From a virus, in the IMG/VR virus record IMGVR_UViG_3300025411_000012, positions 33,359 to 97,358 of that record: a DNA stretch of 64,000 nt. The stretch is one strand, 5' to 3'. The notes beneath the pieces are model-generated. The model saw only the letters and a list, made by a program, of their open reading frames with translations, searched no databases and was not told where the DNA came from. Positions 19,026 to 64,000 of this stretch are shown here, one piece after another. The translations under genes and the position numbers were made by a program. How positions within the stretch are numbered: position 1 is the stretch's first letter; every line of letters starts with the position of its first letter.

Positions 19026-19270
19026 TTGCCTTCGTATGCCGGATTTGGAATATCTAACTCAAATATATGGAACTTGTCTTTACTATCGGTAGCACTAGCA
19101 ACCAGTAGTTCCATTGTTCTATATTTTTCTGCTTCCTCTCGAGTAAAATAAAACCCAGTCGCTCCGCCGCCAGGACTAGCCGTACCTGTAGGATACAGAT
19201 AGAAGTTAGGTGATTGTTTTAACAACATATACACCTTTAGAAACTTTGGAGCCAGCAACGGTTCGGCCAT
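19022..19270 (-). CDS. Unknown small phage protein
   Basis: 82 residues from the ATG at 19270, which overlaps the queE stop (TAATG), the usual spacing in this operon. A GTG at 19282 is an alternative. Contains GGGATGFYFTREEAEKY. No function recognised; it may be the last gene of the modification operon. Confidence 0.55.
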   Translation of the reverse strand: MAEPLLAPKFLKVYMLLKQSPNFYLYPTGTASPGGGATGFYFTREEAEKYRTMELLVASATDSKDKFHIFELDIPNPAYEGK

Positions 19271-24888: not shown

Positions 24889-25558
24889 TTCGTTTTTGTT
24901 CCCATAATTTTTTTCTTGCTTCTGACATCTTTCTTTTAGTTTTGTCTGACATCTTTCTACCTTTAAGTGTAGCACTTATTTTCTCTTTTTGCAAGTCCGA
25001 CATTACTTTACCTTTTTGTGCGGCACACATTTTAGCACGGGTTTCGGCACTTACTTCTACTCCTAATCTGGAGCCTTTTTGAACACCTGTCTTGCCTTTA
25101 TTCCAAGGAGTTTTACCTTTACCAGCTTCGCTTAATTTTTTTCTATGCTCTTCTGATTTTGTTTTACCTTTTAACGCTTCTGATATTCTTTCTTTGTGTG
25201 TATCTTTTCTTGGTTTCTTATTTGCTTCGGAAATAGTCTTTCTCCCTTTTTCTGATAGGTACGACCCGATCTTTATATCTTTGTTCCACGGAATAATGCC
25301 TGCCGATCCATCACCACCGTCTGTCCTATTATGTAAAATACCTGTACCTATATCTTTTCGACCATACCATCTAATCATTCTACGCTCAATAGCAAATGCT
25401 CCAAGCTCTGTTAAATTTGTTTCTAATATAACAATTCTATTTAGGTCTTTAGGAACAATAACAGAGTGAGACTTTTGCCACGCTCTGTCATCTTTCCCTT
25501 TACCAATATAATACGGTGTTAAATCTTTAGTTCTCAAATAAGCATATACATAAAACAT
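24878..25558 (-). CDS. GIY-YIG homing endonuclease with NUMOD3 repeats
   Basis: 226 residues. The N-terminus has [18 protein letters not shown], a GIY-YIG-type catalytic start, with [16 protein letters not shown] following. The rest is a chain of short NUMOD3-type DNA-binding motifs ([28 protein letters not shown]). Such free-standing endonucleases copy themselves between related phage genomes. The gene's end overlaps the dpdA start by 11 bases. A perfect late box TATAAATA is 20 bases upstream, as seen for some T4 homing genes. Confidence 0.93.
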
Positions 25559-31801: not shown

Positions 31802-32379
31802 TTCTTTTTAGCCCGGCCTGCTTTCATGTTTGCTAGCCAATGTGCCATACGGGCCTTTTCACCTGTTGAATGTTTGGCAGTATTTCTTAAACTACTAACA
31901 CTTGCTTTGGTATTTACGCCACTACGTTTGGCAAGACCTTTTCGTCCGGGATTTTTTCCATCGGCAAAGTTCTCATCTGTTTTACCTGCTTTTTTTTTAG
32001 CAATAGCAATAGCAGCCTGTTGAGCAGGATTGGCTGCTTCTTTCAATGTTTGTAATACATTGTATAGTTGTTCAACACTTTCACAATGCCATTTACGTAG
32101 TGCTTTATTGATACGGCTATTTGGATCTCTCTTGGTCGAGGCTCCTGTACGATGTTTCTTCATGCCCTTCATACGAGCACAGAAACTCTTACGACGTTTG
32201 CTGGCCTTGCTGCCTTTCTTTAACTTACTGGGTTTAGTAGTCACAGCAGTTTGTAGTTTACTACCGGGATGTTCGCGACGATAACTCGCTACGCCTTTTT
32301 TATTAAGGCCACCGTTTTTATTTTTACCACTTGATTTTTGCCAAGCGGCTGATTCAGTAATAAATTCTTCGGCTCTCAT
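31798..32379 (-). CDS. Basic protein with capsid-targeting-like N-terminus
   Basis: 193 residues, strongly Lys/Arg-rich. It starts MRAEEFITESA, very like the T4 capsid-targeting sequence (MKTYQEFIAEA), with a predicted cut after E9. The middle segment KSFCARMKGMKKH ... ALRKWHC resembles small modules in other aquatic phage proteins. A second hydrophobic-x-E|A site is in QTLKEAANPAQQ. Best guess: DNA-associated internal head protein. No enzymatic motif. Confidence 0.65.
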   Translation of the reverse strand: MRAEEFITESAAWQKSSGKNKNGGLNKKGVASYRREHPGSKLQTAVTTKPSKLKKGSKASKRRKSFCARMKGMKKHRTGASTKRDPNSRINKALRKWHCESVEQLYNVLQTLKEAANPAQQAAIAIAKKKAGKTDENFADGKNPGRKGLAKRSGVNTKASVSSLRNTAKHSTGEKARMAHWLANMKAGRAKKK

Positions 32380-34868
32380 TTCTTTTTCTTCTTAGGATTT
32401 TTAGCGCCGTAGCTGGCAGCAATAGCCATCTGACGTATTTTTTCTGGACTCTTGTTTTTAAACTGATGATGACCTTTTGCGTTAGGTGTTTGAGCAGCTT
32501 TGGCAAAATCATCAATATACTTTTTTACTGGATCATTGGGTTTAAGTTTTTCAGCTAACTTAGAAGATAGTGACTCTAAATAAGCATCTTGTTCTTCGCC
32601 CATATCGTGTTCATCGTCTACAGCATTAAACACCGCATCTAAGTAATCAGCGGCCTTAGTAACTTTACTTTGTTGCCACGGTTCCAATGTATCGCCTTGT
32701 GCTTGCATTTGTTTGACAGCATGACGTAGTTTAGATGCATGTTTGACTAGACTCTTTAGTTGGCTGCTGGTCATGCCATTGGCTTCATCATTATACCATT
32801 CTGGATTTTCGTGAACACTATCATCGTGACCAGCACCGGCCCATTTGCTAGTACCGTGTGCTGTAGCAGCCGCTCCTTGTCCCCAACCTTTGCCTACATC
32901 GCTATGATCTTCTTTAAGACCACCAACTTTCATGGCCTGTTCTTTATTTGAACTATATCCTTGAGCAATGGCCTGTTGTCTTTGGTTAGGCCAAATATTG
33001 GCAACATACATTTTTCCATCACGAACAATGTACCAAGATTCCTTGTCCATTTCGTCACCAGCAGGACCACCTGTACCGTATCTTGTGCTGCGGTTGTAGT
33101 CCATTTGACGTTGTTGATCGCGCTCGTTATCGTTGGCGTAATAGCCGCCTTCGTCATCATGACGACCTTCGTTAGGTACACAGTTACGAACTTGTCCACC
33201 GTTCTTACCTTTCTTAGTACCAGCCGCATGATGTCCTGGCCAACATTTAGTAAAACCATTTGAGTCCTTAGCACCTTTCTTGATCTCATTAAGATTACCA
33301 TGTGTTTGGCACATACCGCAATCTGGGCATACTGCTTCCATTGTCATCATACTTTCTTCGTGCTTTTTCTTACCGGCACAGTGAGCCTTTTGACTAAAGC
33401 CTTTTGGATGACTACAGTTGATTGAACTCTTATACTTCTGACTCCACTCTTCCGCCACACCTTGCTCTTTAGGCATAGGAATATATCCTTTGCCACTACA
33501 ACGACGACACGATTTGGTAGGGTCTAAAGTATCTTCGCCACTGCCATCGCATTGCGGGCAGGTGCGAGTGGCTTGATCTTCCGCCACACCTTGCTCGTTA
33601 ATTCTTAATTGTTTCTTTGTGTAGGCGATATTACTATCAAAACTTTTTTGACCTTTTTCTTCTGTGGGTTTGGTTATATCCGAATGAACTTGTTTTCCGC
33701 CAGCATAAACTCTTACTTGATATCCCCATGGTGTCTTATGTAGTTCATGTGTGTATGGTCCTATTGTTTCAGAGCGGATAACAGATTCTTTTAGTGAGCC
33801 TTCCGCCACACCTTCCTTCATTCTGCGACCATGTTGATCTAATACTATAAGTTTGCCGCCGAATTTTTTAATATGAGCCAATGCCAAGTCTCGTGATAGG
33901 AATGTTTTAACAAACTCATTTTTGCTATCAGGAAATACACCATACTCAGTTGGTTCAGGGGTATATGTAAGTTTACCTTTTGCTTCCGCCACACCTTCCT
34001 GTAATCCCGGAATAGGATGTAATCCTTTGGGAATTTCTCCAGTCCAATGCTGTGATCCGTGCCTTGCTGGTAAATCTCTTATGGCATTTTCTTCCGCTAA
34101 CTCACACAATTCAGTATGATGTAAAAATATAGTGCTACCACAATCATAACAAGGATAGTTATCAAATGGGTCCTCATCGTCATCGCCACCACTCATAGCA
34201 AATTCATTCAAGGAGCCTTCCGCCACACCTTGCTCGTCACTCTTGTTAATCAAATCGATGTTACCAAACTGACGAAGATGTTTTATTGTGTTATTAAGAT
34301 GGTGGTAATAATCTGGATCGTCTTTACTGACACCATTTTGTGCTAATAATTTTTCAGCATAACGATGTGTTGGCATTTCTTTCTTCAATAGTTCCGGAGC
34401 GCCTTCCGCCACACCTTCTTCTTTTTTAACAACAAAGTTTATGTTTTTGTTTCCGGTGTTGGGATCAATGTATGTGCTTTTGAATACTTTACCGCCGTGT
34501 TCTCGAGCGTAGGCAAATGCTTCATGTTTGTTATCAAATCTATTAGTAGGCGGTTTAATCATAGGGCTTGCTTCTTCCGCCATATCTAATTCACGGGCTT
34601 TGTGTTTTACATCGCCCTGCTTTTCGGCCTTCTTCTTATCCTTGTGAGCACCGGCACCGCCCATCTTGGCGTTCTTGGCCACAAAGTTTCTTGGTTTACT
34701 AGCAGGTATTTCTTTAGGACCCATTCTGCTTTGAACAATAATACTATCTTTGCCTAATGGTTTACTAACGCTAGCAATGCCGCCAGCACTTGTTCCGCCA
34801 CTTGTAGCAGATTCTAACGTATAAACGGTAGTGTCTTTAAAGTTTTTAGATTTAAATTCGTTGTTCAT
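32376..34868 (-). CDS. 830-residue modular protein with six GVAE repeats (candidate internal-head polyprotein)
   Basis: A long protein of unlike modules. The N-terminal ~100 residues are Gly/Ser/Lys-rich. Six almost identical (E/Q)(E/Q)GVAE segments end at residues 155, 217, 295, 356, 430 and 473, marking modules of 62, 78, 61, 74 and 43 residues. Modules include a Cys-pair knuckle (YPCYDCGS, ~245), a DnaJ-like zinc-finger pair (CPQCDGSG and CRRCSGKG, ~437-460) and, after the last repeat, Cys-rich segments (NCSHPKGFSQKAHC, VCPDCGMC). The C-terminal ~150 residues are helical and basic, ending ASYGAKNPKKKKK. Adjacent genes encode capsid-targeting-like N-termini. Each repeat resembles a gp21-type cleavage site (hydrophobic-x-E|small). 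Processing is an inference. Confidence 0.75.
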   Translation of the reverse strand: MNNEFKSKNFKDTTVYTLESATSGGTSAGGIASVSKPLGKDSIIVQSRMGPKEIPASKPRNFVAKNAKMGGAGAHKDKKKAEKQGDVKHKARELDMAEEASPMIKPPTNRFDNKHEAFAYAREHGGKVFKSTYIDPNTGNKNINFVVKKEEGVAEGAPELLKKEMPTHRYAEKLLAQNGVSKDDPDYYHHLNNTIKHLRQFGNIDLINKSDEQGVAEGSLNEFAMSGGDDDEDPFDNYPCYDCGSTIFLHHTELCELAEENAIRDLPARHGSQHWTGEIPKGLHPIPGLQEGVAEAKGKLTYTPEPTEYGVFPDSKNEFVKTFLSRDLALAHIKKFGGKLIVLDQHGRRMKEGVAEGSLKESVIRSETIGPYTHELHKTPWGYQVRVYAGGKQVHSDITKPTEEKGQKSFDSNIAYTKKQLRINEQGVAEDQATRTCPQCDGSGEDTLDPTKSCRRCSGKGYIPMPKEQGVAEEWSQKYKSSINCSHPKGFSQKAHCAGKKKHEESMMTMEAVCPDCGMCQTHGNLNEIKKGAKDSNGFTKCWPGHHAAGTKKGKNGGQVRNCVPNEGRHDDEGGYYANDNERDQQRQMDYNRSTRYGTGGPAGDEMDKESWYIVRDGKMYVANIWPNQRQQAIAQGYSSNKEQAMKVGGLKEDHSDVGKGWGQGAAATAHGTSKWAGAGHDDSVHENPEWYNDEANGMTSSQLKSLVKHASKLRHAVKQMQAQGDTLEPWQQSKVTKAADYLDAVFNAVDDEHDMGEEQDAYLESLSSKLAEKLKPNDPVKKYIDDFAKAAQTPNAKGHHQFKNKSPEKIRQMAIAASYGAKNPKKKKK
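33450..34421 (-). repeat. Six copies of an 18-bp in-frame repeat
   Basis: Copies at 33450-33467, 33579-33596, 33801-33818, 33984-34001, 34218-34235 and 34404-34421. All share an invariant 14-base core (+ strand TTCCGCCACACCTT), coding GGT GTG GCG GAA for Gly-Val-Ala-Glu. Synonymous sites are conserved although several codons are GC-rich for this genome, so the identity is at the DNA level and not only the protein level. Intervals are irregular and in frame. Confidence 0.88.
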
Positions 34869-35684: not shown

Positions 35685-35966
35685 TTATTTTCCATACCAT
35701 AGTTCGAACCATGCGGGAGTGCCTGGGCGAATATTATTTGCCTTCATATATTGTGCTTTGTCATTGCCACTCATTCCGGCTTTGTCTATATTTAGTTTAT
35801 TTGCTTCGGCAACTTTGGCCTTGTATTCAGCCAACCTAACCGTGCTGCCCAAGCCACCCATATAACTAGCAATTTTAAGTTCGTGTATAGGATCGTTGGG
35901 CGCAAGATAACAATCATCGGGACTATCCTGAGTTATGTTTTCTTTTGTAATACGAAACTGTTTCAT
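35685..35966 (-). CDS. Unknown small protein of the head-cargo block
   Basis: 93 residues. MKQFRITKENITQ start; central YKAKVAEANKLN contains a VAE|A site like those in the neighbours; C-terminus RPGTPAWFELWYGK. No family recognised. Overlaps the next gene by four bases. Confidence 0.6.
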   Translation of the reverse strand: MKQFRITKENITQDSPDDCYLAPNDPIHELKIASYMGGLGSTVRLAEYKAKVAEANKLNIDKAGMSGNDKAQYMKANNIRPGTPAWFELWYGK

Positions 35967-37075
35967 TTTAGCTGACTCTCAATTAATCTTGCTAGGGCAT
36001 CGGCCTTATCTTCAACCCAGTTCTCGCCTATGTTTTGTCCACGCCAGTTAGGTTGTGCTGTATAGTTTGCTTCACCGCTATAGCCAGGTTTGTTGACGGC
36101 ATAACTTCCCCCGTCTGGAGTTTCCTTTACACCTTGTTCGGCCCTGCGGCGGAACAACTCTTTAGATATATTTTGTGCTATATTTGTTTTATCCTGTGAT
36201 TTACTTAGATTTTGTAATACTTGGATCAATACTTTTGTTGGATATTTGGTGTAATCTGCTTGATTGATATTTTCTCCAACATTTTGATCAGTCTTTTTAG
36301 GTTCTTCTTTTTTAGGAATACTGCTGGGAGTTCTTTTTAAACTAGCATCACTCTTGGCACGTTGTTGATCCCATGCCTTGCTCAATTTAGCAGCAGCACT
36401 CATACGGGCTTCTGCTACTTTGCCTTTTTTAGTAGGAGTCATGGCCTTCATACGTTGTTCGGCCTTGTTCATTAAGTCTCGTACTTCATCATCACTGAGT
36501 TCGGGATTCATAGCATTACGCCAAACCGCAAACTTTTCTTCTTCACTCTTGGCAGGATCCATTAATACGGCTCGCATAGGTGTAGCACGTGGTCCTTCTT
36601 GATCACGGCTCGGATCCTTGGTTTCTTGACGACTTATGACGTTTAATGTGTTGAAATTAAAGGGAATATTGCCAGATTTGTTAGGTTTTCCGTTGTAATT
36701 TTTAACATAGCTTAATGCCTTAACTTGATCAGCACCTACCACAACGGTGGCAGCTGTATAACCCATTTCATTTAATTTGGCTAGTACCCGAGTTAAGTCT
36801 GGCATTTCTTCTGTAGCAGTTTGGAAAATATGTCCGCTTTGTGGAAATACTTTTTTGTAGATAGCTAGTTTTTCTTTAGGGTTGATAGGATCATCTTTAC
36901 CCACCGTACGACTAACAACAAAGTATGGATCTGCTCCCAACTCTTTGGCCTGTGTAATAACACTGCTGGCCAAGAACATGTGTCCCTTGTGTCCCATACC
37001 ACGACCCCAACCGACCACCGCAGCCTTACCTTGACCAGTTCTTGATAGATCTTCAAAAATATTTCTTAATAACAT
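35963..37075 (-). CDS. HxGH nucleotidyltransferase-fold enzyme (cytidylyl/NMN-adenylyltransferase-like)
   Basis: 370 residues from the ATG at 37075 (MLLRNIFEDLSR), chosen because it starts one base before the upstream stop codon ends; a longer frame to 37219 would overlap that gene by 140 bases. The HxGH motif H29-K-G-H32 (GRGMGHKGH), a VVVGADQV strand and a later SRQETKDPSR define the nucleotidyltransferase superfamily. A Lys/Ser-rich linker follows, then a diverged copy of the GVAE repeat near residue 315 (AEQGVKE) and a short C-terminal domain. Substrate unknown. Confidence 0.75.
   Translation of the reverse strand: MLLRNIFEDLSRTGQGKAAVVGWGRGMGHKGHMFLASSVITQAKELGADPYFVVSRTVGKDDPINPKEKLAIYKKVFPQSGHIFQTATEEMPDLTRVLAKLNEMGYTAATVVVGADQVKALSYVKNYNGKPNKSGNIPFNFNTLNVISRQETKDPSRDQEGPRATPMRAVLMDPAKSEEEKFAVWRNAMNPELSDDEVRDLMNKAEQRMKAMTPTKKGKVAEARMSAAAKLSKAWDQQRAKSDASLKRTPSSIPKKEEPKKTDQNVGENINQADYTKYPTKVLIQVLQNLSKSQDKTNIAQNISKELFRRRAEQGVKETPDGGSYAVNKPGYSGEANYTAQPNWRGQNIGENWVEDKADALARLIESQLK
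36122..36139 (-). repeat. Diverged seventh copy of the GVAE repeat
   Basis: Encodes EQGVKE; 14 of 18 bases match the commonest form of the repeat in the 830-residue gene. It lies near the end of the neighbouring nucleotidyltransferase-fold gene, two kilobases away. Confidence 0.6.
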
Positions 37076-37076
37076 A

Positions 37077-38216
37077 TTAGTCTTTCCTCGGTGCCCAGTT
37101 GGCTTGGTCAATGGCTTTGACAAATTGACCTGGTAAATCATTTTTAAATTGTGTACCGGGGTGTGCTTGTACATAACCTTCAGGTTTAGTTTGACGAATT
37201 CCACCATGTGTGCCTGCACTGATTAGTTGTATTAGTTTGAGTTTTTCATGGCTAATCATTTCTACAGCATGTAATACAATATCTAGTCCAGGATCATTTA
37301 ATACCTTACCTGCTTGTCCCGCAGATAAGTTAGCCTGTGCCCATTGAGCAAACTTTTGTTTAACGCCGGGAATACGAAGATTTTGATTATAGAACTTGTA
37401 CAATATATCACCAGGTTTACTTAGTCCTGGTTTGGGTGCTAGAAACCCATCGATAGCCTGTGCATTTTTTGTAATGTATTGTTCGACTTTACTAACACCT
37501 GCAGGATCTAGTGTAGGAGCCTTTTCAACATATGTAGTACCTTGAACAATAATGTCTGGTGTACTTAATGCTTCTGCATTGGGATAACGGCTTTCTTCAC
37601 TGCTGCCTAATGTTTCATACCAACCTGTGGCAGCAACCATGACTTTGGCGATTTTAATACGTTGTCCTAATTTGCTACCTACCGGAATATGAAATTCAGT
37701 GATGTTGGGTTTGAAATCGTATTCTTGACTTTGTGGATTTAATCTAGGTGGTTGATCAGGACTGAATAAAATACCGCCTTCAATGTATCCACGTTCTGGA
37801 CTTGCGGCTTCAAAGTATCTCCACAAGTTGGCCATACCGCTGGCAAAATGTTCACGTTGACGTTCTTTACCAGGTTCGACTCGACCTGTGCCTAAAATAA
37901 ATGCCTTGATATCTTCGGGACTATACATTACGGTTTTTACACCGTTGTCTAATTCGGTCTTACCACGTTTTAAATATTCCCAAGCATTTTTAGGTATCAT
38001 ACTAAACCGGCCTTGCTCGTCCTTGCCCCAATATACAACAGGACTGCCATCCCATTTTAATTCAATGCCGTGTCCTTCCTTAGTCATGCTTTGTAGACGT
38101 TCGATGGCATGTAGGCCACCTTGACTACCGTTAGTAAACACTAGGTCTTCGATATGTTGATATTTACGACCTACAGTAGGTGCTGCTGCTTCTGTTAATA
38201 GTTCGCGGATCTTCAT
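37077..38216 (-). CDS. Ligase-like covalent nucleotidyltransferase with capsid-targeting-like N-terminus
   Basis: 379 residues. It begins MKIRELLTEAAAP, with a predicted cut after E9. The nucleotidyltransferase motif I KWDG is at 54-57 (IELKWDGSPV), where K54 would be adenylylated in DNA/RNA ligases. An EGGILFSPD segment near 147 could be motif III. Possible jobs: nucleic-acid end joining or repair on injected DNA. Whether it is a ligase or another KxDG enzyme is not certain. Followed by the Pol-beta-like gene with a four-base overlap. Confidence 0.72.
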   Translation of the reverse strand: MKIRELLTEAAAPTVGRKYQHIEDLVFTNGSQGGLHAIERLQSMTKEGHGIELKWDGSPVVYWGKDEQGRFSMIPKNAWEYLKRGKTELDNGVKTVMYSPEDIKAFILGTGRVEPGKERQREHFASGMANLWRYFEAASPERGYIEGGILFSPDQPPRLNPQSQEYDFKPNITEFHIPVGSKLGQRIKIAKVMVAATGWYETLGSSEESRYPNAEALSTPDIIVQGTTYVEKAPTLDPAGVSKVEQYITKNAQAIDGFLAPKPGLSKPGDILYKFYNQNLRIPGVKQKFAQWAQANLSAGQAGKVLNDPGLDIVLHAVEMISHEKLKLIQLISAGTHGGIRQTKPEGYVQAHPGTQFKNDLPGQFVKAIDQANWAPRKD

Positions 38217-52898: not shown

Positions 52899-52927
52899 AT
52901 TATACTATAGTTTAAATTTTTAATCAA
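52899..52927 (-). promoter_or_regulatory. Sigma70-type promoter upstream of the gene-44 run
   Basis: On the - strand, -10 TATAAT (52899-52904) and -35 TTGATT (52922-52927), 17 bases apart, starting inside the end of the SDR gene. The -10 box is only 6 bases before the next ATG, so the message would be nearly leaderless, or the site mainly serves later genes such as gene 44. Confidence 0.7.
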
Positions 52928-53502
52928 GCAGTAAAGGTTAAATCTAATATCTGATGCGGCTGTTGTATTGCCCAATTACACAAATCAAAAACATAGTTTG
53001 TATTCATTTTTTCAAAATGTAAATGTTTAGTCATATCAGTATCCACTAAACCAGGTTTTAAATGAATGATTTCTGGAGATTTCCAACTTAATGTTCTTAA
53101 CTCGTTGACTGTGTGCTCTAAAGAAATCTTATGTGTTTCATACATAAGTAATCCATATTTTGCTTCTTCTGTGTTAGGATGTAAAGACCTGTATACCTCA
53201 GAAAGAGAACTACCAATCACTACGATTTTTTTAGATTGTCCTTGCCATAGTCGGTGTAGTTTAAGTAATAAATCAGTTTGAATAAATCCCTCCATTACGG
53301 AAGTAAAATTTCCTGAATAGGCATTGTTAATAAAAACATCGCAATCGGCTGATTTTTTAATTATCTTATCTACATTTTTTGGATTAACAATGTCGTATCC
53401 ATTAGAACGACTGAACCCTATAACTTTGTGGCCTTGTTTTTTAAAACCTTCAGCCAAAGCAAGACCGATACCTTTTGTATGACCGGTTATTGCTATTTTC
53501 AT
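52924..53502 (-). CDS. Short-chain dehydrogenase/reductase (SDR)
   Basis: 192 residues from the ATG at 53502. NAD(P)-binding TGHTKGIG (6-13), NNAYSG (59-64), catalytic S98/S99 and Y121-x3-K125 (YETHK). Substrate unknown. The preceding frame to 53550 lacks support. SDR genes are common auxiliary genes of T4-like aquatic phages. Confidence 0.85.
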   Translation of the reverse strand: MKIAITGHTKGIGLALAEGFKKQGHKVIGFSRSNGYDIVNPKNVDKIIKKSADCDVFINNAYSGNFTSVMEGFIQTDLLLKLHRLWQGQSKKIVVIGSSLSEVYRSLHPNTEEAKYGLLMYETHKISLEHTVNELRTLSWKSPEIIHLKPGLVDTDMTKHLHFEKMNTNYVFDLCNWAIQQPHQILDLTFTA

Positions 53503-53503
53503 A

Positions 53504-53896
53504 TTAACCGCGTAAGCTCTCCATAGTAATAATCTTTGACAAACTTTCACCTAAATCCTGATCATGACCGACAATGTGTAGTTGATTCATATTGCGATCC
53601 TTAGCTTCATCGTAGCGCATAGTTTCAACAATAGTTCCACCATTGGCACGAAATACATTCATACGCAGCGGATTACCTTCTAGTCTTGGACTATGATCGA
53701 GGGATACAACGGTATTACTTGCTAGACTATTTTCTTCTTCATAGGCTCGTTTGCCAATATTAACTAGCCATCGTTTAAAAAAGTTCATTTTCTTTTCCTT
53801 TGGTTCTTCTTCCCACCTTGCCATTGATCTTATTTGTTGTTTCCTATTACCACTACTGAGTTTTGCTGTTGTTGCGTACATACTACCTTGACTCAT
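53504..53896 (-). CDS. Unknown phage protein
   Basis: 130 residues. N-terminal basic, Ser/Gln-rich (YATTAKLSSGNRKQQ) and a middle NFFKRWLVNIGKRAYEEEN. C-terminal LDHSPRLEGNPLRMNVFRANGG. Homologues exist in T4-like aquatic phages, from memory; role unknown. Overlaps the cytidylyltransferase by four bases. Confidence 0.62.
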   Translation of the reverse strand: MSQGSMYATTAKLSSGNRKQQIRSMARWEEEPKEKKMNFFKRWLVNIGKRAYEEENSLASNTVVSLDHSPRLEGNPLRMNVFRANGGTIVETMRYDEAKDRNMNQLHIVGHDQDLGESLSKIITMESLRG

Positions 53897-54357
53897 TTTT
53901 TTGTCCTTTCTGCTTCTGCTACACGCTTGCGTAGACTTGAACTACTAAATGAATGATCTCGTCCGTTATAGACAATTTCTATTCCACGGTCATAACAGAT
54001 ATCTCTACCTGTAAATTCTTTGTCTGCGTACTCTATACCTAATATTCTAACATCTATCGGCAATGTGAGCAAGATATCTTCGAGGTCTTTTTCAGTCTGA
54101 TATACAACTATTTCGTCCACATAACGAACTGCGGCAAGTTGGATTTGCCGTTCCACAATACTTTGAACTGGCGGATTTTTGGTATCGGGTCTATCGATTG
54201 ATGCATCTGTTTGTAGTGCAGCAATTAGGTAATCACAATGGTTTTTAACTTCGGCCAACATGGCAATATGTCCTGCATGTAGTAAATCGAACTGGCTAAA
54301 CACAATACCAATCTTTTTACCATCTGCTTTGAGTGCTTTAACTTTATTGAATATCAT
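53893..54357 (-). CDS. Cytidylyltransferase-like enzyme
   Basis: 154 residues. The HxGH motif in FDLLHAGHIAM, and SSSSLRKR near the C-terminus, define the glycerol-3-phosphate cytidylyltransferase/TagD-type family. It activates a small molecule with CTP or ATP; the substrate cannot be read. A separate family member, with a larger domain, is at 35963-37075. Confidence 0.82.
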   Translation of the reverse strand: MIFNKVKALKADGKKIGIVFSQFDLLHAGHIAMLAEVKNHCDYLIAALQTDASIDRPDTKNPPVQSIVERQIQLAAVRYVDEIVVYQTEKDLEDILLTLPIDVRILGIEYADKEFTGRDICYDRGIEIVYNGRDHSFSSSSLRKRVAEAERTKK

Positions 54358-54972: not shown

Positions 54973-55266
54973 TTATTCCTCTGTTGATTGTTGTTGATTT
55001 TTAGTTGATTTAGTCGTCGCAGGTGCTACAACTTGTGGCGGTACAATTTCAGGAGCTTCTGTGTTAGAAACTGTTGATTTTTTAGCAGGAGTATCATAAT
55101 ATGATGCTACTACTTCTTCGCGCTTTTTAATGATTTCTCCGCCAGGCCCTATTTGATCTCCGCGGGCATTCACTCTAACATTGCCTACTGCAAGAGTTAG
55201 CTCGTTTTGTTTAGCTAACTTGTTCATGTCTACCATTTTACCTTGAGCTGATCTGTGTAATGTCAT
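54973..55266 (-). CDS. Conserved T4-like phage protein, unknown function
   Basis: 97 residues. The N-terminal HRSAQGKMVDMNKLAKQNE and VNARGDQIGPGG blocks look well conserved in T4-like aquatic phages, as I recall. The C-terminal ~40 residues are disordered (Thr/Pro/Gln-rich). Directly upstream of the gp31 gene. Confidence 0.68.
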   Translation of the reverse strand: MTLHRSAQGKMVDMNKLAKQNELTLAVGNVRVNARGDQIGPGGEIIKKREEVVASYYDTPAKKSTVSNTEAPEIVPPQVVAPATTKSTKNQQQSTEE

Positions 55267-55784
55267 TTTATTTCTCCTTTTAGGAACTCTTGAATATCAA
55301 GTTCGTATCTTAGACTGTCAATTTTGTGTATGCCTATCAAATATAAAACATATGATGCTACACTACTACCGCGACCTACGCCCCAAACAATATCATGTTC
55401 TCGCATAGTATCTACCAAGTATTTACAATAGTGCAGAACGTCAAACATATTATGTTGAATAAACAGTTCTAACTCTTCGGTGACCCTTGCTGTTTGCTGG
55501 TCTGTAGTACACATACCGTAAAGCATTTCTACAAGATTTGGACAGTAGTCCTTGGGCATAAACCATTCTGTTTGATTTGCTTCATCAAACAGTTCAACGC
55601 TGTCAAACTTATCGTGTTTGATTTTTTTGAGTTCGGGAAATCGATCTGCATTTTTGGATCTTGCTTGATTGAACTGTTCAATCATATCCACATATACATC
55701 GTCAAAGTTAACAATCTTGCCTGCGTATAATGCGTTAAACGCTTCGATTTCTGTTAGTTCAACTTCGCCGTAGTTATTGATTTT
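55263..55784 (-). CDS. DnaE-like fragment (DNA polymerase III alpha homologue piece)
   Basis: 173 residues from a GTG at 55784 (VKINNYGEVELTE); an ATG at 55832 would overlap the upstream gene by 59 bases. The C-terminal VGRGSSVASYVLYLIGIHKID and SLRYELDIQEFL correspond to the GRGSAAGSLVAYLLGI motif of bacterial DnaE. The catalytic Asp residues of a polymerase are not visible in this short protein, so it cannot polymerise alone. Similar fragments are known from cyanophages, to my recollection. Possibly a replication or repair accessory. Confidence 0.65.
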   Translation of the reverse strand, partial: KINNYGEVELTEIEAFNALYAGKIVNFDDVYVDMIEQFNQARSKNADRFPELKKIKHDKFDSVELFDEANQTEWFMPKDYCPNLVEMLYGMCTTDQQTARVTEELELFIQHNMFDVLHYCKYLVDTMREHDIVWGVGRGSSVASYVLYLIGIHKIDSLRYELDIQEFLKGEIK

Positions 55785-56325
55785 CACTCTTACCGCCCTT
55801 GATAATTCGAGGTTCGAATTTCGGGCTATCATTAAGTTCTAAATCATCCCAGGATACATCTATTGTTGTACCTGTTTCTAGATTGTCCATATTCCACCAA
55901 TGTTCGCCCGATAAATCTAATCCAGATTCTTCCGGATCTCGTATACAATACTGTACATGATCTCCAACGGCACTGTCAACAGTCATAAAGCCAATTTCAA
56001 AATATTTTGCAGTTATTACTTGGAATTTTCTGAGCAATACACTACCTACAAAATAATCGTAGGGTTCTGTGGGAAACTGTACTAAGTTACTGCTCGATAT
56101 ATTTAAAGGTTCTAACAATATGTTTTTATCGAAAATAAAAATGCTATTGTGTAAACAACTATCTACAAAAGTTCTTAGTCTTCTAAATCCCATGGCAAGA
56201 TCATGAGGACTTACTGGTTCTATTGCTATCCCTATACTATATTGATTAGGAATAATAGTTGTATCTGATATAAGAGTACAGGCAAAGTTAGTGGGCCAAA
56301 TGTAATGTTCTAGGTCATTCGACAT
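55774..56325 (-). CDS. Unknown phage protein
   Basis: 183 residues, hydrophobic-rich in parts but without transmembrane pattern (IPNQYSIGIAIEPVSPHDL; VGSVLLRKFQVITAKYFEIG). C-terminus acidic (WDDLELNDSPKFEPRII). No family recognised. Overlaps neighbours by 11 bases each. Confidence 0.62.
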   Translation of the reverse strand: MSNDLEHYIWPTNFACTLISDTTIIPNQYSIGIAIEPVSPHDLAMGFRRLRTFVDSCLHNSIFIFDKNILLEPLNISSSNLVQFPTEPYDYFVGSVLLRKFQVITAKYFEIGFMTVDSAVGDHVQYCIRDPEESGLDLSGEHWWNMDNLETGTTIDVSWDDLELNDSPKFEPRIIKGGKSENQ

Positions 56326-56561: not shown

Positions 56562-57821
56562 TTAAAATCCTATAGCCATCCATTCGATTGCTTCGACTCC
56601 CGATGCTGGAGTAGAACTGTAACCGGGTGAGTTAATAAATCTAATATTAAATCCGGTAGCTGCTGTATTGACTACTTGGACCTGTGAATCAATACCATTG
56701 TCGTCTGTGATATTCCATGCAGTTGCCATTACTTGTAATGCACCGTTTGGAAAACCTGTTTGTTGAACTCCGTTTTGTATTGGGGAGATACCGGGGATGA
56801 TCGGGAATGATATAGTGGTAGTAATGTTTCCTGCTGAGGAAGTATTAAAGGCCGCATTGGCCAAAGTGCCCCAAATCATAATTAATCCACTGGGTAATAC
56901 ATGGTATCCGACTCCTGTAGTGTTTCCAGTACCGTCGCCACCTGTAAGACTACATCTCCATGTAGCAGTATTATTTCTTTGTTCTATTACTTGATTTGCA
57001 TCAGTGAATATTAGATCACCGTCTATGGTTAAATTAACAAATTTTACAGAAGTTGATGTGCTTGATAGATTACCTTGCACATTCATATTTCCATTAACTA
57101 CCAGGTTACCGTTGATATTTAGAGAGTTTGTAATACCAACCCCTCCTTGTACAACCAAAGTTCCTGTATTATATGCTGTTGATTCTATTCCAGCAGAAAA
57201 TACAACATCCTGACTAAATGCTTCTGAAAGTAAAGTTGTTACAGTGTTGGCATTGATTACAGTGAATAACTCAAATGTTGGATTTGTAACATATACAACA
57301 TTGTCAACAAATGTCGGCGGGGGGTCAAAATAAACAGTATAACCGTCTATAGCAGTTATAGTATATGGGCCACTAGCAGTGGGATTTTTTCCATAAAATG
57401 TTCCCCCTACTAGTAGTTCGGTTGTTGTATTATAAGACATAAAACTACTAGTAGCAGCCGATAGAGATTCTATAGACATTGGTACAACATTTGGAAACAT
57501 TGCTATAGAACCTGCGGCAGGGGTATTGTTTGCGTTTTTTCCAATAACTACAACATCATTCAACTGACCGATGCTAATAGAATCTATAGAACCTAATTTT
57601 AAAGTTTTTAAAGCATTAACAATATGAGTTCCTGTAATAATATTAGTAGTTGTATTATTAATAGTAGCTGCTAGTGTATCTATATACGAGTTTAATGTAG
57701 TTAACGATGCTTGTATATTATTGAAATTGTCACGAAACCCCTGTGCGTTATTATTTTCGCCAGGAAGGGGGTATAGGGAATTTATATTATTAATATATTG
57801 TGTTGCGCCAGTTGTGCTCAT
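56562..57821 (-). CDS. Fibre-like structural protein, paralogue A
   Basis: 419 residues. N-terminal YPLPGENNNAQGFRDNFNNI and a later NSYIDTLA block, a beta-rich Thr/Asn shaft, and a C-terminal domain with YHVLPSGLIMIWGT and FPIIPG. The same three blocks are found in the next two genes, so all three arose by duplication. A tail-fibre or adhesin role is likely. Distal sequences differ, which suggests different receptors. Confidence 0.78.
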   Translation of the reverse strand: MSTTGATQYINNINSLYPLPGENNNAQGFRDNFNNIQASLTTLNSYIDTLAATINNTTTNIITGTHIVNALKTLKLGSIDSISIGQLNDVVVIGKNANNTPAAGSIAMFPNVVPMSIESLSAATSSFMSYNTTTELLVGGTFYGKNPTASGPYTITAIDGYTVYFDPPPTFVDNVVYVTNPTFELFTVINANTVTTLLSEAFSQDVVFSAGIESTAYNTGTLVVQGGVGITNSLNINGNLVVNGNMNVQGNLSSTSTSVKFVNLTIDGDLIFTDANQVIEQRNNTATWRCSLTGGDGTGNTTGVGYHVLPSGLIMIWGTLANAAFNTSSAGNITTTISFPIIPGISPIQNGVQQTGFPNGALQVMATAWNITDDNGIDSQVQVVNTAATGFNIRFINSPGYSSTPASGVEAIEWMAIGF

Positions 57822-57825
57822 AATT

Positions 57826-58914
57826 TTAGTGTCCTATTGCAAACCAAGTAAACGCTCCGGCCGAAGAGTTTTGAACTGCTGATGCATTACTCATAAACAC
57901 AAACGAAGAATTGTTATAACTAACAATATTTGGAAATACGTCCCAATAAAATGCTCCGGGTGTTCCTGGAGTATTATTTGCTGGCGGTGTTCCTGCGGCC
58001 CCTGCATTGTAGTTTAAGTTCCAATAGCTCATTTGAAGATTTAAACATGCATTTGGAAATCCGGGATTAGATTGTCCAGGCAATGTTGGGAATGGAATTG
58101 TATTTGTCGATTGCCAAGAAACTAACCCAGTAGTCCCCCACATCATTATTAATCCTGTGGGTAATATTTGATATCCTGAGGTAAGATTAGTAGCAGACGA
58201 TGTAGAGGAAGTGATTGATTGTGTGTCTGAAGTAACAAAAAAGTTTAAAAAAGATGATGTGTTTAAAATAATAGCAGGGGATGCATCATTATTTTTATCT
58301 TTAAGTATTAAATTGCCAGTTAAGGTAACACCGTTAAACGTTACATTACTTGATGTATTGATCAGATTTCCTTGAACAGTTAAGTTTCCATTAATGCCAA
58401 GACCGCCACCAACATTTAATGTTTTGCTAATACCGACCCCACCTTCTACAACTAACGTACCGTTGGTATAAGCATCTGAATCATCTCCAGCAGATAATAT
58501 TAAATCTTGATTAAATGACTGCGATATCATCTTATTAACATCGCTACTAGTCACTACTACAAAATCTTGGAATATAGGATTACTTCCGTTTTTAAAAAAC
58601 CCCACAGACCCTGCTGCTGCTGTTCCGTCTGGATTTTGTCCAGTGATAACAATATCGCCTAACTGTCCGGTACTGATGTTAGTTCCTGTACCTAATTTTA
58701 ACAAGGTTAATGCAGATAATAGTTGTGTAGCAGTAACAGTTGATGCATTTACATTTAATGTAGTTCCTGCTAAGTTATCCATGTAGGAGTTTAAATCATT
58801 CAACGAAGTTTGTATATAGTTGAAATTATTTCTAAATGTCTGGCTGGAGTTATCTATACCCGATTGTGGATATAGTGTATTAATAAGTTGTGTACTAGTT
58901 AAGGCTGCGGTCAT
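57826..58914 (-). CDS. Fibre-like structural protein, paralogue B
   Basis: 362 residues. Shares YPQSGIDNSSQTFRNNFNYI, the DLNSYMDNLAG block and QILPTGLIMMWGTTG with the neighbours. Lacks the central ~60-residue extra segment of paralogues A and C. An AATAAATA box lies 13 bases upstream. Confidence 0.78.
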   Translation of the reverse strand: MTAALTSTQLINTLYPQSGIDNSSQTFRNNFNYIQTSLNDLNSYMDNLAGTTLNVNASTVTATQLLSALTLLKLGTGTNISTGQLGDIVITGQNPDGTAAAGSVGFFKNGSNPIFQDFVVVTSSDVNKMISQSFNQDLILSAGDDSDAYTNGTLVVEGGVGISKTLNVGGGLGINGNLTVQGNLINTSSNVTFNGVTLTGNLILKDKNNDASPAIILNTSSFLNFFVTSDTQSITSSTSSATNLTSGYQILPTGLIMMWGTTGLVSWQSTNTIPFPTLPGQSNPGFPNACLNLQMSYWNLNYNAGAAGTPPANNTPGTPGAFYWDVFPNIVSYNNSSFVFMSNASAVQNSSAGAFTWFAIGH

Positions 58915-60148: not shown

Positions 60149-62029
60149 TCAATCAAAAAAGAACATCTGCCATAGTCTACAGTTATCTTGATTATATCCA
60201 AAATATCCCAGTGCAGAATGTAGGTATCCTGCGTTAAAAATAACTAATCTGTTGTAAACATTTCCGATAACATCTACAGGTTCTAAAATAGTTTTATCTA
60301 GATTTTGCGAACCCGGTCTAAACGCCTCCATAATGCCTTCTTGACTGTTATGGAACACTCTATTCTTTTTAATGGCATGTGTGCCTGTACCTGTTTCGAA
60401 AGGAGCATCGGGAGTTAGATAAATCATAGCAGCCCATTTTTGACTGTCGCAATGATAAACTAATGGCTCACCTTCTGTGTTATATTGAAAACGACCATTC
60501 ATACCATGTTCTTCCCACGCAGTGATTTCGCGACCCATGATACGTTCAAACTCAGGTTTTAGTTCAGGGAATAAAAACTGTTTAAAAGTTCTACGTCCAA
60601 TATATCCCCGACCGATACCACCTTGATGATATTCTTGTTCAAGTGCAAACTTTCTAATAGCATCCGGATCTTTATAAAAGTTATCTACGACCCAAAATCC
60701 CGGTCTAGGATTGCTATTGATTTTGCTATTAGAAATAACAGTATTAATACTTCTATTAATGAGAGGTGCCTTAACTACAGTAGGCTCTGGGAACATATAG
60801 TCTCCAGCATACTGTAAATTATATTCAGTAACATTCTGCATCTTAGCAAGCACTTCCGCATCTATTAGATCAGGGTGTGCCCACCAATCTTCATAACTGT
60901 GAAGTTTATTATATCCAATGTCGTTGGCAACTAATACATACCCTTTAGATTTCAAAAACTCTCTAGACTGGTCTCGTATTGATTGATCAACATAGTAATC
61001 GTGTTCATAAGTGATTACCGCAAACTTGTGTGTGTCGAATGGTATTTTTTTTAAGATATTAAATGTTTGCTCAGGAGGATCGCAATCTAGTTGAAGAAAA
61101 TCTATTGTCTTTTCTAAGTTAACTTTATCAATGAACTTGGTGTAATCAATTTGTGTAGCGTCTAAACAAAACACTAGATTATTTCTTTCGTTCATGAACT
61201 TTTCAACAAGTTCCCTGTTAAAATCAATACTAGCGCCAGTCCATCCGAATTTAGTTTCTAATAATGCTGTGTTATTGCTTTTAAATGGATCGGCACTACC
61301 TATTTCTAAATAAGTTCCGTTTGTTTTTCCATTTAACATAGATAGCACAAACATGTCTTGATATGATTGCGAATAGTTGTCATCGATTGTTTCGATGTTA
61401 TTAAACTTAAATCGTATATTGTCTAACATTGACTTTTTATATTTAGATACTGTATATCGAGTTGCTGTATTTTGAGGATAACCAATAGAGTTAAGATTAT
61501 TTTCTACAATATTTGAAAATAACTCTTCCATAGGATAGTTGTATTTTAGATCAGCCATGATTTCTCGGGCCTCTTCATTTTTACCAACCCACCATGCTGC
61601 TACACCTTTTTGGAAATATAATCCATACCACCCCGGATATAATACATCTGATCGTAATGGATCTTGATTAAACTCACATATTGTTAGCCCTAATACAGCA
61701 AATGTATAAGAGTTTTGCCAATCTTTTTTCTTTTCGTATAATCTGCTTAACAAGAAATATGCTTCTGGTCTGTTGTGTATTAGTACGATGGCTTTTTGTA
61801 AGATTGCTTCTTCGGTCATGTCTCTGAGACCTTGCCGATCAAAACATCTAGCACATTTAAGTAATGCTTCATATTGTTTTAAATCGTCAGTGGCACGTTC
61901 TGCGGCACGTAGATAAAAACTCAATGCAGCACCTGTTTGACCTAATGAATCGTATTCCAGTGCTAGGTTAAAATTAGCATCCGAATCTTCTGGGTTATCA
62001 ATGTAATAAGAAAGTTGTGTTAGTTGCAT
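60149..62029 (-). CDS. TPR + FkbM-type methyltransferase + 2OG-dioxygenase-like fusion
   Basis: 626 residues in three parts. Residues ~1-170: TPR-like helical repeats (ANFNLALEYDSLGQTGAAL; AYFLLSRLYEKKKDW). ~215-390: SYQDMFVLSMLNGKTNGTYLEIGSADPF, an FkbM-type SAM-binding fold (EIGSADP for SAM) with DFLQLDCDPPE. ~430-626: FWVVDNFYKDPDAIRKFAL, then YHCDSQKWAAMIYLTPDAP with a His-x-Asp pair and a late NAGYLHSALGYFG His, a DUF6445-like 2OG-Fe(II) oxygenase pattern. It lies among fibre and propeller genes, so a virion modification role is possible. Confidence 0.8.
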   Translation of the reverse strand: MQLTQLSYYIDNPEDSDANFNLALEYDSLGQTGAALSFYLRAAERATDDLKQYEALLKCARCFDRQGLRDMTEEAILQKAIVLIHNRPEAYFLLSRLYEKKKDWQNSYTFAVLGLTICEFNQDPLRSDVLYPGWYGLYFQKGVAAWWVGKNEEAREIMADLKYNYPMEELFSNIVENNLNSIGYPQNTATRYTVSKYKKSMLDNIRFKFNNIETIDDNYSQSYQDMFVLSMLNGKTNGTYLEIGSADPFKSNNTALLETKFGWTGASIDFNRELVEKFMNERNNLVFCLDATQIDYTKFIDKVNLEKTIDFLQLDCDPPEQTFNILKKIPFDTHKFAVITYEHDYYVDQSIRDQSREFLKSKGYVLVANDIGYNKLHSYEDWWAHPDLIDAEVLAKMQNVTEYNLQYAGDYMFPEPTVVKAPLINRSINTVISNSKINSNPRPGFWVVDNFYKDPDAIRKFALEQEYHQGGIGRGYIGRRTFKQFLFPELKPEFERIMGREITAWEEHGMNGRFQYNTEGEPLVYHCDSQKWAAMIYLTPDAPFETGTGTHAIKKNRVFHNSQEGIMEAFRPGSQNLDKTILEPVDVIGNVYNRLVIFNAGYLHSALGYFGYNQDNCRLWQMFFFD

Positions 62030-62030
62030 T

Positions 62031-63035
62031 TTATTCTTTCAATAAATCTGCTAAAAGTGATTCTGGCATTTTAACAATAAATGCAGCATTATCTTGGAAT
62101 CCAAAGGACAACAATAAGTCTCCTTTATAAAATGTTGCTCCACAGCAAAACTCGATATCAGCCTTCATGAAACTAAATGTGTCAGTATATTTGATCAAGT
62201 TCCAGTTTTTATCCCAAACTAGAAATCTATGAAGATATGTTCCGTCCTTTTCTCCTGCAGGACTCTTAAACAAGTTTACCTCGTGTATCAAAGCAATATA
62301 ATAATCGCCGTACGGAATAACATGGCTACTTCCTCTAAAGTCTGGAACTCCTTGAATGTACGTGGTTTCATCTAAATGAATAGTAGTTGTAGTATTGTTT
62401 ACCGGATCAAATTTTACAACTTCTGTTGGATTACACCATTTAACGTATGTAAACGGTTGATCCAAGACTGGCATCCAGTTTTTTTCGCAATATGTATCGT
62501 TTAGTTTAGTAGCGGGGATTCTTGTTCTTTTTATTTCTTTTGCTGAGCTACTTGAAATCTCTAACTCAGACAGTTCCATACGTCCTTGTCCATTAGTTGT
62601 GGTATCTCTACGAACACCACAATGATAAAGCGTATCATTCCATCGAAATAATCTAGCATCTTCTAGACCAATAAACTCCCAAAGTGGTTCTACATCTAAC
62701 TTTGATGTATCTACTTTGTTTACTGTTTTAATGGTTAAATCTTCATTTAGTTCAGCAATATAATTCCAAGTACGCAGTTTAATATCGTTTTCAGGATGAA
62801 TATATTGTAAAGGCCCCCAACGATGTTGGAATTGTTTGCGCTCAGAATGGTATAATGTATAGTTTACATGGCGAATGTTACACAGGATTTTGTCTCCATC
62901 TATATAAATGGAAGGGTTCATTAATCCAGTGCCATTGGTTTGATCTGCTGGAATTATGAGTGGATGTATGCTGCCACCGGCATCTATGGCACATTTGACC
63001 AAGCCGTACTTTTTAAATTTGGATATTAAGCTCAT
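62031..63035 (-). CDS. GH130-like five-bladed beta-propeller protein
   Basis: 334 residues. GLEDARLFRWNDTLYHCGVR resembles the GH130 signature for mannoside phosphorylases and related hydrolases; PSIYIDGDKILCNIRH and NPTEVVKFDP blades follow. It has no signal peptide. Located between the collagen-like fibre and the oxygenase fusion. Possibly a glycan-active tail or sugar-processing enzyme; whether it is catalytic is unproven. Confidence 0.72.
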   Translation of the reverse strand: MSLISKFKKYGLVKCAIDAGGSIHPLIIPADQTNGTGLMNPSIYIDGDKILCNIRHVNYTLYHSERKQFQHRWGPLQYIHPENDIKLRTWNYIAELNEDLTIKTVNKVDTSKLDVEPLWEFIGLEDARLFRWNDTLYHCGVRRDTTTNGQGRMELSELEISSSSAKEIKRTRIPATKLNDTYCEKNWMPVLDQPFTYVKWCNPTEVVKFDPVNNTTTTIHLDETTYIQGVPDFRGSSHVIPYGDYYIALIHEVNLFKSPAGEKDGTYLHRFLVWDKNWNLIKYTDTFSFMKADIEFCCGATFYKGDLLLSFGFQDNAAFIVKMPESLLADLLKE

Positions 63036-63086: not shown

Positions 63087-64000
63087 TTAACTATTCTTGA
63101 GTGCTGCTATTTCTGTTGTTAACTCTTTAATAGCTTCAATTAATACGCCTACAATATTACCGTAAGCAACACTTAACAATCCATTTTCGTTATCGATAAC
63201 AACTTCTGGTAATATTTTTTGTATTTCTTGAGCAATAACACCTGTACCGTCTTTATTATTATCCAAACGTGTGTATGTTACACCTCGCATAGACATTACT
63301 TTATCTAACGCATTTTGTATAGTTTTTACATCTGTTTTAATACGCTCATCGGAATATGCTGTGACGTTTCCGCCGCAAGTCAAATCTCCGTTATAGGTTA
63401 ATCCACTGCTACCAGTTACACCACTTCCGGTACCGTAAACGACATAACTATTAGAAATACTTAGTGTAGCACCACTGGTACCTTGCGGACCTGTGCCTCC
63501 TGTACTGCCAGTTGATCCTGTGGTACCTTGCGGCCCAGTTGATCCTGTTGATCCGGTATATCCTTGCAGTCCGGTAGAACCATTAGAACCATTAGATCCA
63601 GCAGTTCCTTGTGGTCCAGTAGAGCCTGGATTACCTTGTGGTCCTGCACCTCCAGTAGTTCCCTGTGCACCTGTAGATCCAGTTGTACCTTGAGCGCCTG
63701 TAGCACCAGTAGTTCCTTGCGGTCCGGTAGAACCAACAAATCCTTGGGTACCAGTAGTTCCTTGCGGTCCGGTGGCACCTGTAGTACCTTGTGGTCCCGT
63801 AGCACCTGTTGTTCCCTGAGAACCTGTGCCACCACTGCTACCAGCACTACCTTGTAGACCAGTACTACCCTGAGTACCACTGCCTCCACTGCTACCAGCA
63901 CTACCTTGTAGACCAGTACTACCCTGAGTACCACTGCCTCCACTGCTACCAGCACTACCTTGTAGACCAGTACTACCCTGAGTACCACTGCCTCCACTGC
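63087..64000 (-). CDS. Collagen-like tail fibre with C-terminal S74-type chaperone, 5' part cut off
   Basis: The frame is open to the window end. From the distal end: a Gly-X-Y collagen-like shaft ([18 protein letters not shown] repeats and variants with GPQG), a beta-linker, then the C-terminal [19 protein letters not shown] and [15 protein letters not shown] of the S74/endosialidase chaperone family, which trims itself off after trimer folding (catalytic Ser-Asp in SDERIK). A start-like TTG at 63383 is mid-gene. At least 303 residues are visible. Trimeric fibre or receptor-binding protein. Confidence 0.88.
63834..64000. repeat. 54-bp tandem repeat in the collagen-like gene
   Basis: Identical copies begin at 63834, 63888, 63942 and 63996 (last cut by the window end), each 54 bases, encoding 18 residues of Gly-X-Y. 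The exact DNA identity indicates recent expansion. Confidence 0.92.

Follow-up and report, generated by a model that had tools for sequence, protein, structure and literature searches.

Background

The nearest functional precedent that we found for the gene considered here is A064R of chlorovirus PBCV-1. According to the available part of PMC9614988, A064R is a protein of 638 amino acids with three domains, which builds the terminal part of the viral capsid glycan and, through its methyltransferase domain, O-methylates the last sugar, and A061L is a second methyltransferase that adds another methyl group to the PBCV-1 glycan. A sugar-capped collagen-like spore protein, as described in the available part of PMC10050317, was used as a background analogy. 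In T4-like phages the tail-fibre region gathers glycosyltransferases, which are read as modifiers of the host O-chain in the available part of PMC7029224.

The gene lies in the final 64 kb of a virus record of 97,358 bases; these 64,000 nucleotides are the whole stretch analysed and are called the window below. Neither a TPR-FkbM-2OG fusion nor its pairing with a GH130-like protein was announced in the literature titles and abstract openings searched, PMC5647855 and most subscription journals aside.

A three-domain protein

At positions 60149-62029 the earlier note had described an enzyme made of TPR, FkbM methyltransferase and 2OG-oxygenase-like domains. This observation was right, and the strand, which it left unstated, is the minus strand. 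The reading frame is complete, with an ATG at 62029 and a stop codon ending at 60149, and encodes a protein of 626 amino acids (P0001), whereas the sole frame of at least 60 amino acids on the plus strand here is one of 64 amino acids. The identical protein is found on two metagenome contigs (L001 and L002). The features of the gene are as follows.

60149..62029, minus strand: TPR-methyltransferase-2OG protein P0001, 626 aa (ORF call; AF2 model)
61472..62029, minus strand: TPR scaffold, residues 1-186 (Pfam TPR just under the cut-off; VIA-align)
60830..61414, minus strand: class I SAM methyltransferase, FkbM-like, residues 206-400, boundaries set by ourselves (30-sequence alignment; Foldseek; Pfam in relatives)
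60725..60778, minus strand: low-confidence linker, residues 418-435 (AF2 pLDDT under 50)
60152..60709, minus strand: Fe(II)/2OG-oxygenase-like domain, residues 441-626 (conserved motif; PHROG 1644; DUF6445; BFVD)

The AlphaFold (AF2) model, built on an alignment of 45 sequences, has a mean pLDDT of 88.7 and a pTM of 0.49, the latter in line with domains that are joined flexibly. The three domains are backed by the relatives, by AlphaFold and Foldseek and by an invariant HxD...H...R motif. The profile check suggested in the earlier note was borne out by the relatives, which match Pfam, and by PHROG 1644, but the single P0001 sequence stayed below every Pfam cut-off for the three domains, and the NCBIfam profile search gave nothing above cut-off.

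Structural searches of the PDB with Foldseek and VIA-align were run with the whole model. The Foldseek list opens with SPINDLY and O-GlcNAc transferase, matched via the TPR part, and class I methyltransferases follow from row 15. The first VIA-align row was set aside because it spans residues 1-414 at an rmsd of 18; the further rows cover residues 1-192 only, with Z of about 15-17 against solved TPR proteins. The Pfam TPR match of P0001 has an E-value of 5e-5, slightly under the cut-off, and the model has ten helices within residues 1-182. In the viral structure library (BFVD) the matches are to proteins named phage 'Methyltransferase FkbM' and cyanophage '2OG oxygenases', and to glycosyltransferases.

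Residues 199-397 form the alternating helices and strands of the class I Rossmann SAM fold (AF2 and Foldseek), and the class I methyltransferases matched by Foldseek include 7xpl and 3eey, with E of about 1e-6 and rmsd of about 4 Å, and 4qtt. In the 30-sequence alignment of this domain, EDW at 380-382 is invariant and the E of an EIG motif nearly so. Pfam PF05050 (FkbM / Methyltransf_21) has no match on the single P0001 sequence; Methyltransf_21 is matched in 4 of 22 family members (best E 0.0016), and the top viral structural match of P0001 is a phage 'Methyltransferase FkbM' of 416 amino acids. We call the domain FkbM-like and do not file it as an FkbM member.

In the third domain H526, D528, H604 and R618 are invariant in 26 of 26 aligned sequences, and from the motif they form we infer putative roles in iron and 2OG binding. 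DUF6445 (PF20043) scores 19.6 bits on P0001 against a cut-off of 24 and exceeds the cut-off in some relatives, e.g. L025 (29.8 bits); at E 0.01 it is matched by 20 of 22 members, the remaining two being without such a region. PHROG 1644 matches residues 444-626 (E 3e-27), and two viral structural matches of P0001 in BFVD are named 2OG oxygenases. Among the PDB matches listed for the whole of P0001, whose rows are filled by TPR and methyltransferase structures, no 2OG structure occurs; this says nothing against the double-stranded beta-helix fold expected of such oxygenases. Sequence profiles of the 2OG and methyltransferase domains gave no credible match in the PDB, and no paper on DUF6445 was found. 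The PHROG label 'minor coat protein' was not accepted as a function, since a relative in S-SCSM2R is annotated as a 2OG-Fe(II) oxygenase.

The author of the earlier note knew of no phage system with this fusion, and uniqueness was rejected by a search for the domain combination, which returned many other such frames. The plain TPR-methyltransferase-2OG frame occurs in 19 of 46 TPR-bearing loci, counted by hand among the 57 loci first gathered, and is therefore not a chance arrangement. In a larger collection the fusion makes up 35 of 103 non-redundant TPR frames, and one case lies in the isolate S-SCSM2R.

A propeller gene directly upstream

The earlier reading of the locus was right in outline and incomplete, in that it overlooked a partner gene which ends 1 nt before the start of the TPR gene.

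62031..63035, minus strand: partner protein, beta-propeller of the GH130/GT108 kind, 334 aa (AF2; Foldseek; VIA-align)

The predicted model of the partner (pLDDT 88.9, pTM 0.90) clearly has a beta-propeller fold of the GH130/GT108 type, a type with five blades. The first 42 Foldseek rows are mannoside phosphorylases or synthases, Leishmania MPT, or putative or hypothetical glycosidases and proteins, with GH43 coming after. VIA-align Z reaches 24.5 (3.2 Å over 273 residues), with 18.0-19.0 for the MPT enzymes and 18.6 and below for GH43 propellers. The motifs GLED and GVRRD are invariant in 27 of 27 partner members, and are presumed to be equivalent to GH130 residues. Pfam gave no match on the window protein; at E up to 1, PF04041 is found in 18 of the 27 members (best 6.8e-5), the window protein not being one of them. 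The partner sequence profile had no credible match in the PDB. Relatives are annotated as 'beta-mannosyltransferase' in DSL-LC02 and 'MGP protein' in S-SCSM2R. On one contig (L006:4017-5006 and 5003-5980) tandem propeller copies, 57% and 44-46% identical to the window partner, precede one TPR-methyltransferase-2OG gene.

Phosphorylases and hydrolases predominate among the structures matched, so the partner might degrade rather than build. A further reading takes the propeller as a mannoside phosphorylase in a cassette for the synthesis or salvage of a small molecule, with the fused domains tailoring a soluble sugar or sugar nucleotide. Phosphorylases do provide most of the top structural matches of the partner, cytidylyltransferase-like and epimerase-like genes lie downstream, and a mannose-6-phosphate isomerase domain is present in one of the 35 long TPR frames described below; a TPR scaffold and a place beside fibre genes would however be unexpected for a soluble metabolite, and we regard this as the most improbable of the readings considered.

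Pairing of the propeller and TPR genes

Among the 46 TPR-bearing loci, a partner lies within 4 kb upstream in 43, and in 33 of these 43 it overlaps the TPR frame by 4-29 bases (frames as called here). Two of the three others (L019 and L020) are truncated where the contig begins, and the third (L041) has another gene upstream, presumably a UV endonuclease. In the best 80 of at least 592 partner loci, a TPR frame was found downstream in 73 and was adjacent or overlapping in 67; the other seven comprise two at a contig edge, one fusion of propeller and TPR, three with the TPR frame elsewhere and one with none. The best 80 of at least 589 2OG loci have TPR in the same frame in 66; of the remaining 14, four run off the start of the contig. 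Both sets of 80 are top scorers, biased to close relatives and with many near-identical contigs.

The propeller and TPR also occur in a single frame, in both orders: propeller first in L131, and TPR first in L133, L138, L139 and L142, the latter four forming one cluster at 90%. Such fusions are a hint, from sequence, that the two may act jointly. In 19 sequences, identity correlates with that of the TPR at r=0.86 for the partner, 0.80 for the methyltransferase and 0.51 for the TPR protein's own fused 2OG domain, and mean identities are 49% (TPR), 59% (partner), 65% (methyltransferase) and 78% (2OG); Mantel permutation results are inflated by the relatedness of these sequences, and the lower correlation of 2OG may partly stem from its high conservation. 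From the correlations of 0.86 against 0.51, together with the pairing, the partner and TPR appear to be the fixed unit, with the oxygenase as an add-on that is either more mobile or under tighter constraint.

Partner-TPR pairs were also seen in MAG records titled Verrucomicrobia, Woesearchaeota, Bacteroidetes and Rhodobacteraceae (L058-L062). Three of them (L060-L062) share one gene order, and in the one examined (L061) T4-type terminase and tail-sheath stabiliser genes come next, so such bins may hold phage contigs; all three look like phage contigs binned into MAGs. The label CcmH/NrfG carried by the S-SCSM2R relative was not taken as a function, as it probably mirrors the TPR alone.

Modules carried on the TPR scaffold

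By hand count, the 46 TPR loci comprise 19 with the plain fusion, 14 with extra sequence before the 2OG domain, 8 with 2OG in a neighbouring frame, 2 with TPR and methyltransferase, 1 with TPR and 2OG, and 2 truncated. Where 2OG lies in the neighbouring frame in L044, L047 and L057, the TPR-bearing frame matches P0001 over the TPR only. Pfam searches of ten variant proteins gave an extra FkbM domain in L025, L026, L029, L033 and L044, FkbM with radical SAM and SPASM in L022 and L057, GT17 preceding 2OG in L044 and L047, and FkbM with Methyltransf_24 and no TPR match in L045.

In total, 234 loci contain 203 complete TPR frames, which fall into 103 clusters at 90%: TPR-methyltransferase 43, TPR-methyltransferase-2OG 35, TPR without methyltransferase, 2OG or propeller 18, TPR-2OG 5, TPR-propeller 1 and propeller-TPR 1. 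These proportions are not abundances, because the loci were gathered with cassette queries. Pfam families on the 35 longer TPR clusters, tallied over 25 of 29 families (the matches listed), were FkbM (20), GT25 (7), radical SAM (6), GT2 (4), the LPS-synthesis domain WavE (3), GT17 (2) and GT7C (2), as well as the mannose-6-phosphate isomerase domain already mentioned, DUF6445 and several generic methyltransferase families.

In one phage (L018/L203) the same contig encodes TPR-methyltransferase and TPR-2OG as separate proteins; P0001 is the joined equivalent, which ties the two activities together. An apparent absence of 2OG in the near relatives L017 and L018 was rejected, since a second TPR protein on these contigs carries it.

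Genes between the partner and the TPR frame in L003, L004, L026 and L034 include FkbM, GT11, GT25 below the cut-off and Methyltransf_24. Downstream, L033 has a GT25-Methyltransf_24 gene; upstream of the cassette of L022 lies a gene for ribonucleotide reductase. Across 18 genome-contig loci, the methyltransferase was matched without TPR in 13. Four bacterial methyltransferase loci include one in which the domain is fused to GT11 (L063) and one in which it stands beside GT1 (L065); in the other two (L068 and L073) no family was found on the one protein examined in each.

Several glycosyltransferase families, together with methyltransferases and radical SAM, are thus carried on the same TPR, which makes a glycan the likelier substrate. 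The cassette is part of a mix-and-match kit, present in hundreds of viral sequences, whose probable role is to build and cap sugars. Many of the scaffold modules belong to generic methyltransferase families that are not specific for sugars, which weighs against a glycan.

Fibre genes and candidate acceptors

The earlier note had placed the gene between fibre genes, and Pfam agrees: collagen-like and gp53-like fibre genes flank the cassette.

63087..64000, minus strand: collagen-like fibre with S74 chaperone end, putative acceptor (Pfam Collagen 3.7e-21, Peptidase_S74 7.2e-16); incomplete, since the window reaches the contig end
58938..60113, minus strand: fibre-like protein with gp53-like C-terminus, putative acceptor (Pfam PF21882 8.3e-7)
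57826..58914, minus strand: second fibre-like protein (PF21882 5.1e-4, below cut-off)
56562..57821, minus strand: third fibre-like protein (PF21882 7.7e-6)

Distances to collagen-family matches were taken in 16 records chosen from the 57 loci, with coordinates copied by hand among the matches listed. Such matches occur in 15 of the 16, and in 13 of these 15 they lie within 8 kb of the cassette, against 4.7 expected; none of 20,000 shuffles reached 13, and 414 of 20,000 reached the observed median. The record of L022 has no collagen match and was left out (13 of 16 if counted as a miss), and the sample holds the near-identical pairs L008/L040 and L015/L016. The cassette of S-SCSM2R comes after a baseplate wedge gene, with the nearest collagen match 7.5 kb off. 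The result is one of co-location with the fibre region and cannot choose between the phage's own fibre and the host surface.

One reading of this neighbourhood is that the 2OG and methyltransferase domains act directly on amino acids of the fibre, i.e. of a collagen-like stalk, as mimivirus L230 does on lysines; that precedent is taken from the available part of PMC9614988. A collagen-like gene is indeed next upstream in line, and a cyanophage protein named prolyl-4-hydroxylase and a megavirus procollagen-lysine dioxygenase are among the viral structural matches of P0001. The megavirus match is weak (E 5e-5, TM 0.23/0.17, 9% identity), and glycosyltransferases on the same scaffold favour sugars. 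Furthermore, the Y positions of the nearby collagen-like repeats (n=1,077, from the 17 of 57 loci with runs of at least 8, including the window phage and the near-identical L017 and L018) are Gln in 60%, Thr plus Ser in 26%, Pro in 0.9% (10 positions) and Lys in none. At these 1,077 positions the Lys or Pro substrate of collagen lysyl or prolyl hydroxylases is absent or almost so, which makes hydroxylation of the animal type unlikely, and we consider the direct reading improbable. The Y composition is compatible with O-glycosylation; it may be general in phage stalks.

Alternatively, the glycan machine could modify the host surface polysaccharide (LPS or O-chain) at infection and so alter receptors against superinfection. 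This is somewhat unlikely in our estimate, though less so than direct action on the stalk. Proximity to fibre genes is no proof of a fibre substrate, because the same region gathers glycosyltransferases that are read elsewhere as host O-chain modifiers, a role proposed in the available part of the pelagimyophage study (PMC7029224). The WavE domains occur in 3 of the 35 long TPR frames, and the Pfam description of GT25 assigns it to LPS biosynthesis. A standalone relative of the 2OG domain occurs in S-SSM7 amid glycosyltransferases and nucleotide-sugar genes, including a UDP-glucose dehydrogenase. This cluster, like a standalone relative in S-WAM2 that follows tail-fibre genes, also speaks for the glycan-building system proposed below. 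Against a host target, no hydrophobic segment above 1.54 on a 19-residue scale was found in 22 TPR-family and 27 partner-family members, and the best whole-model PDB matches, O-GlcNAc transferase and SPINDLY, modify proteins, though they match only via the TPR.

Other genes of the window were noted as well. About 6-7 kb downstream of the cassette lie a cytidylyltransferase-like gene (53893-54357, minus; PF01467) and an epimerase/short-chain dehydrogenase-like gene (52924-53550, minus), a possible sugar-nucleotide supply for the cassette. The T4 late-promoter motif, which we take to be TATAAATA, has two sites in the window, fewer than the 8.7 expected by chance, and neither is near the operon. 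A 189-aa protein (55263-55832, minus) matches part of the NTPase domain of bacterial DNA polymerase III alpha (PF07733, 5.5e-13), which is odd beside what is presumably a family-B-like polymerase at 27080-29749. Genes that we take to encode a QueE-type radical-SAM protein (19270-20127, minus) and a DpdA/TGT-like transglycosylase (23317-24975, minus) suggest 7-deazaguanine DNA modification in this phage; a presumed GIY-YIG homing endonuclease-like gene (24878-25558, minus) overlaps the start of the transglycosylase-like frame. By eye, an 830-aa protein (32376-34868, minus) repeats an 'EQGVAE' or 'EGVAE'-like motif many times, and its neighbour (35963-37219, minus) has similar motifs.

Proposed function

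We propose that P0001 is the tailoring subunit of a two-gene phage glycan-building system whose carrier is most likely the phage's own fibre or another virion protein, and give this a probability of roughly 0.48. The upstream propeller, by its predicted fold, would transfer a sugar, plausibly mannose. The TPR of O-GlcNAc transferase docks protein acceptors, and in the same style the TPR of P0001 may dock with the propeller, a protein acceptor, or both. The motifs, and the other enzymes found on the scaffold, suggest that the FkbM-like domain would O-methylate and the 2OG domain hydroxylate the glycan, either while it is being built or afterwards, so that the sugar would be capped and specific to the phage. 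The gene location and the lack of membrane segments suggest, as the likeliest carrier, a tail-fibre or another virion protein of the phage itself, synthesised in the cytosol from genes nearby. Module swaps on the TPR would diversify the sugar from phage to phage.

The suggestion in the earlier note that a virion protein or surface glycan is methylated and hydroxylated is supported as far as tailoring goes, with a glycan as the likelier target. Glycan tailoring by the cassette is probable, and self-decoration of the virion is in our judgement more likely than modification of the host. More broadly, and more tentatively than the proposal for P0001, phages (T4-like where checked) may combine a fixed core of mannosyltransferase-like propeller and TPR with swapped modules, yielding a lineage-specific capped fibre sugar that would alter adsorption, host range or recognition. 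The conserved two-gene core in the Synechococcus phage isolates S-SCSM2R and DSL-LC02 makes self-decoration testable. If true, it would account for many genes that now lack an annotation or go under the names 'minor coat protein', 'MGP protein' or 'CcmH/NrfG'.

Comparison with known systems

A064R, like P0001, is a three-domain viral enzyme with a methyltransferase; compared by its description in the available part of PMC9614988, it differs in having two glycosyltransferase domains and neither TPR nor 2OG. Mimivirus L230 is likewise a viral fusion with a 2OG-type (lysyl hydroxylase) domain, in a virus with collagen-like proteins, but it is fused to a glycosyltransferase and targets the Lys of Gly-X-Y, according to the same part of that article (PMC9614988).

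O-GlcNAc transferase and SPINDLY share with P0001 an N-terminal TPR before the catalytic part, and the good match is confined to that TPR. Pfam at E up to 1 gives neither GT41 nor any other glycosyltransferase on P0001, whose residues 206-626 are taken up by the methyltransferase and 2OG domains. The phage FkbM proteins A0A6J5KVN0 and A0A6J5KM45, the best and third-best BFVD matches, align over 416 and 452 columns, which suggests that they consist of TPR plus methyltransferase; with 416 and 413 amino acids they have, unlike P0001, no room for a 2OG domain.

The partner resembles the GH130 mannoside phosphorylases and the Leishmania GT108 MPT in predicted fold, with VIA-align Z of 18.0-24.5 over 255-289 residues. 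It differs from them in its sequence (9-15% identity), in being viral and in being paired with a TPR protein.
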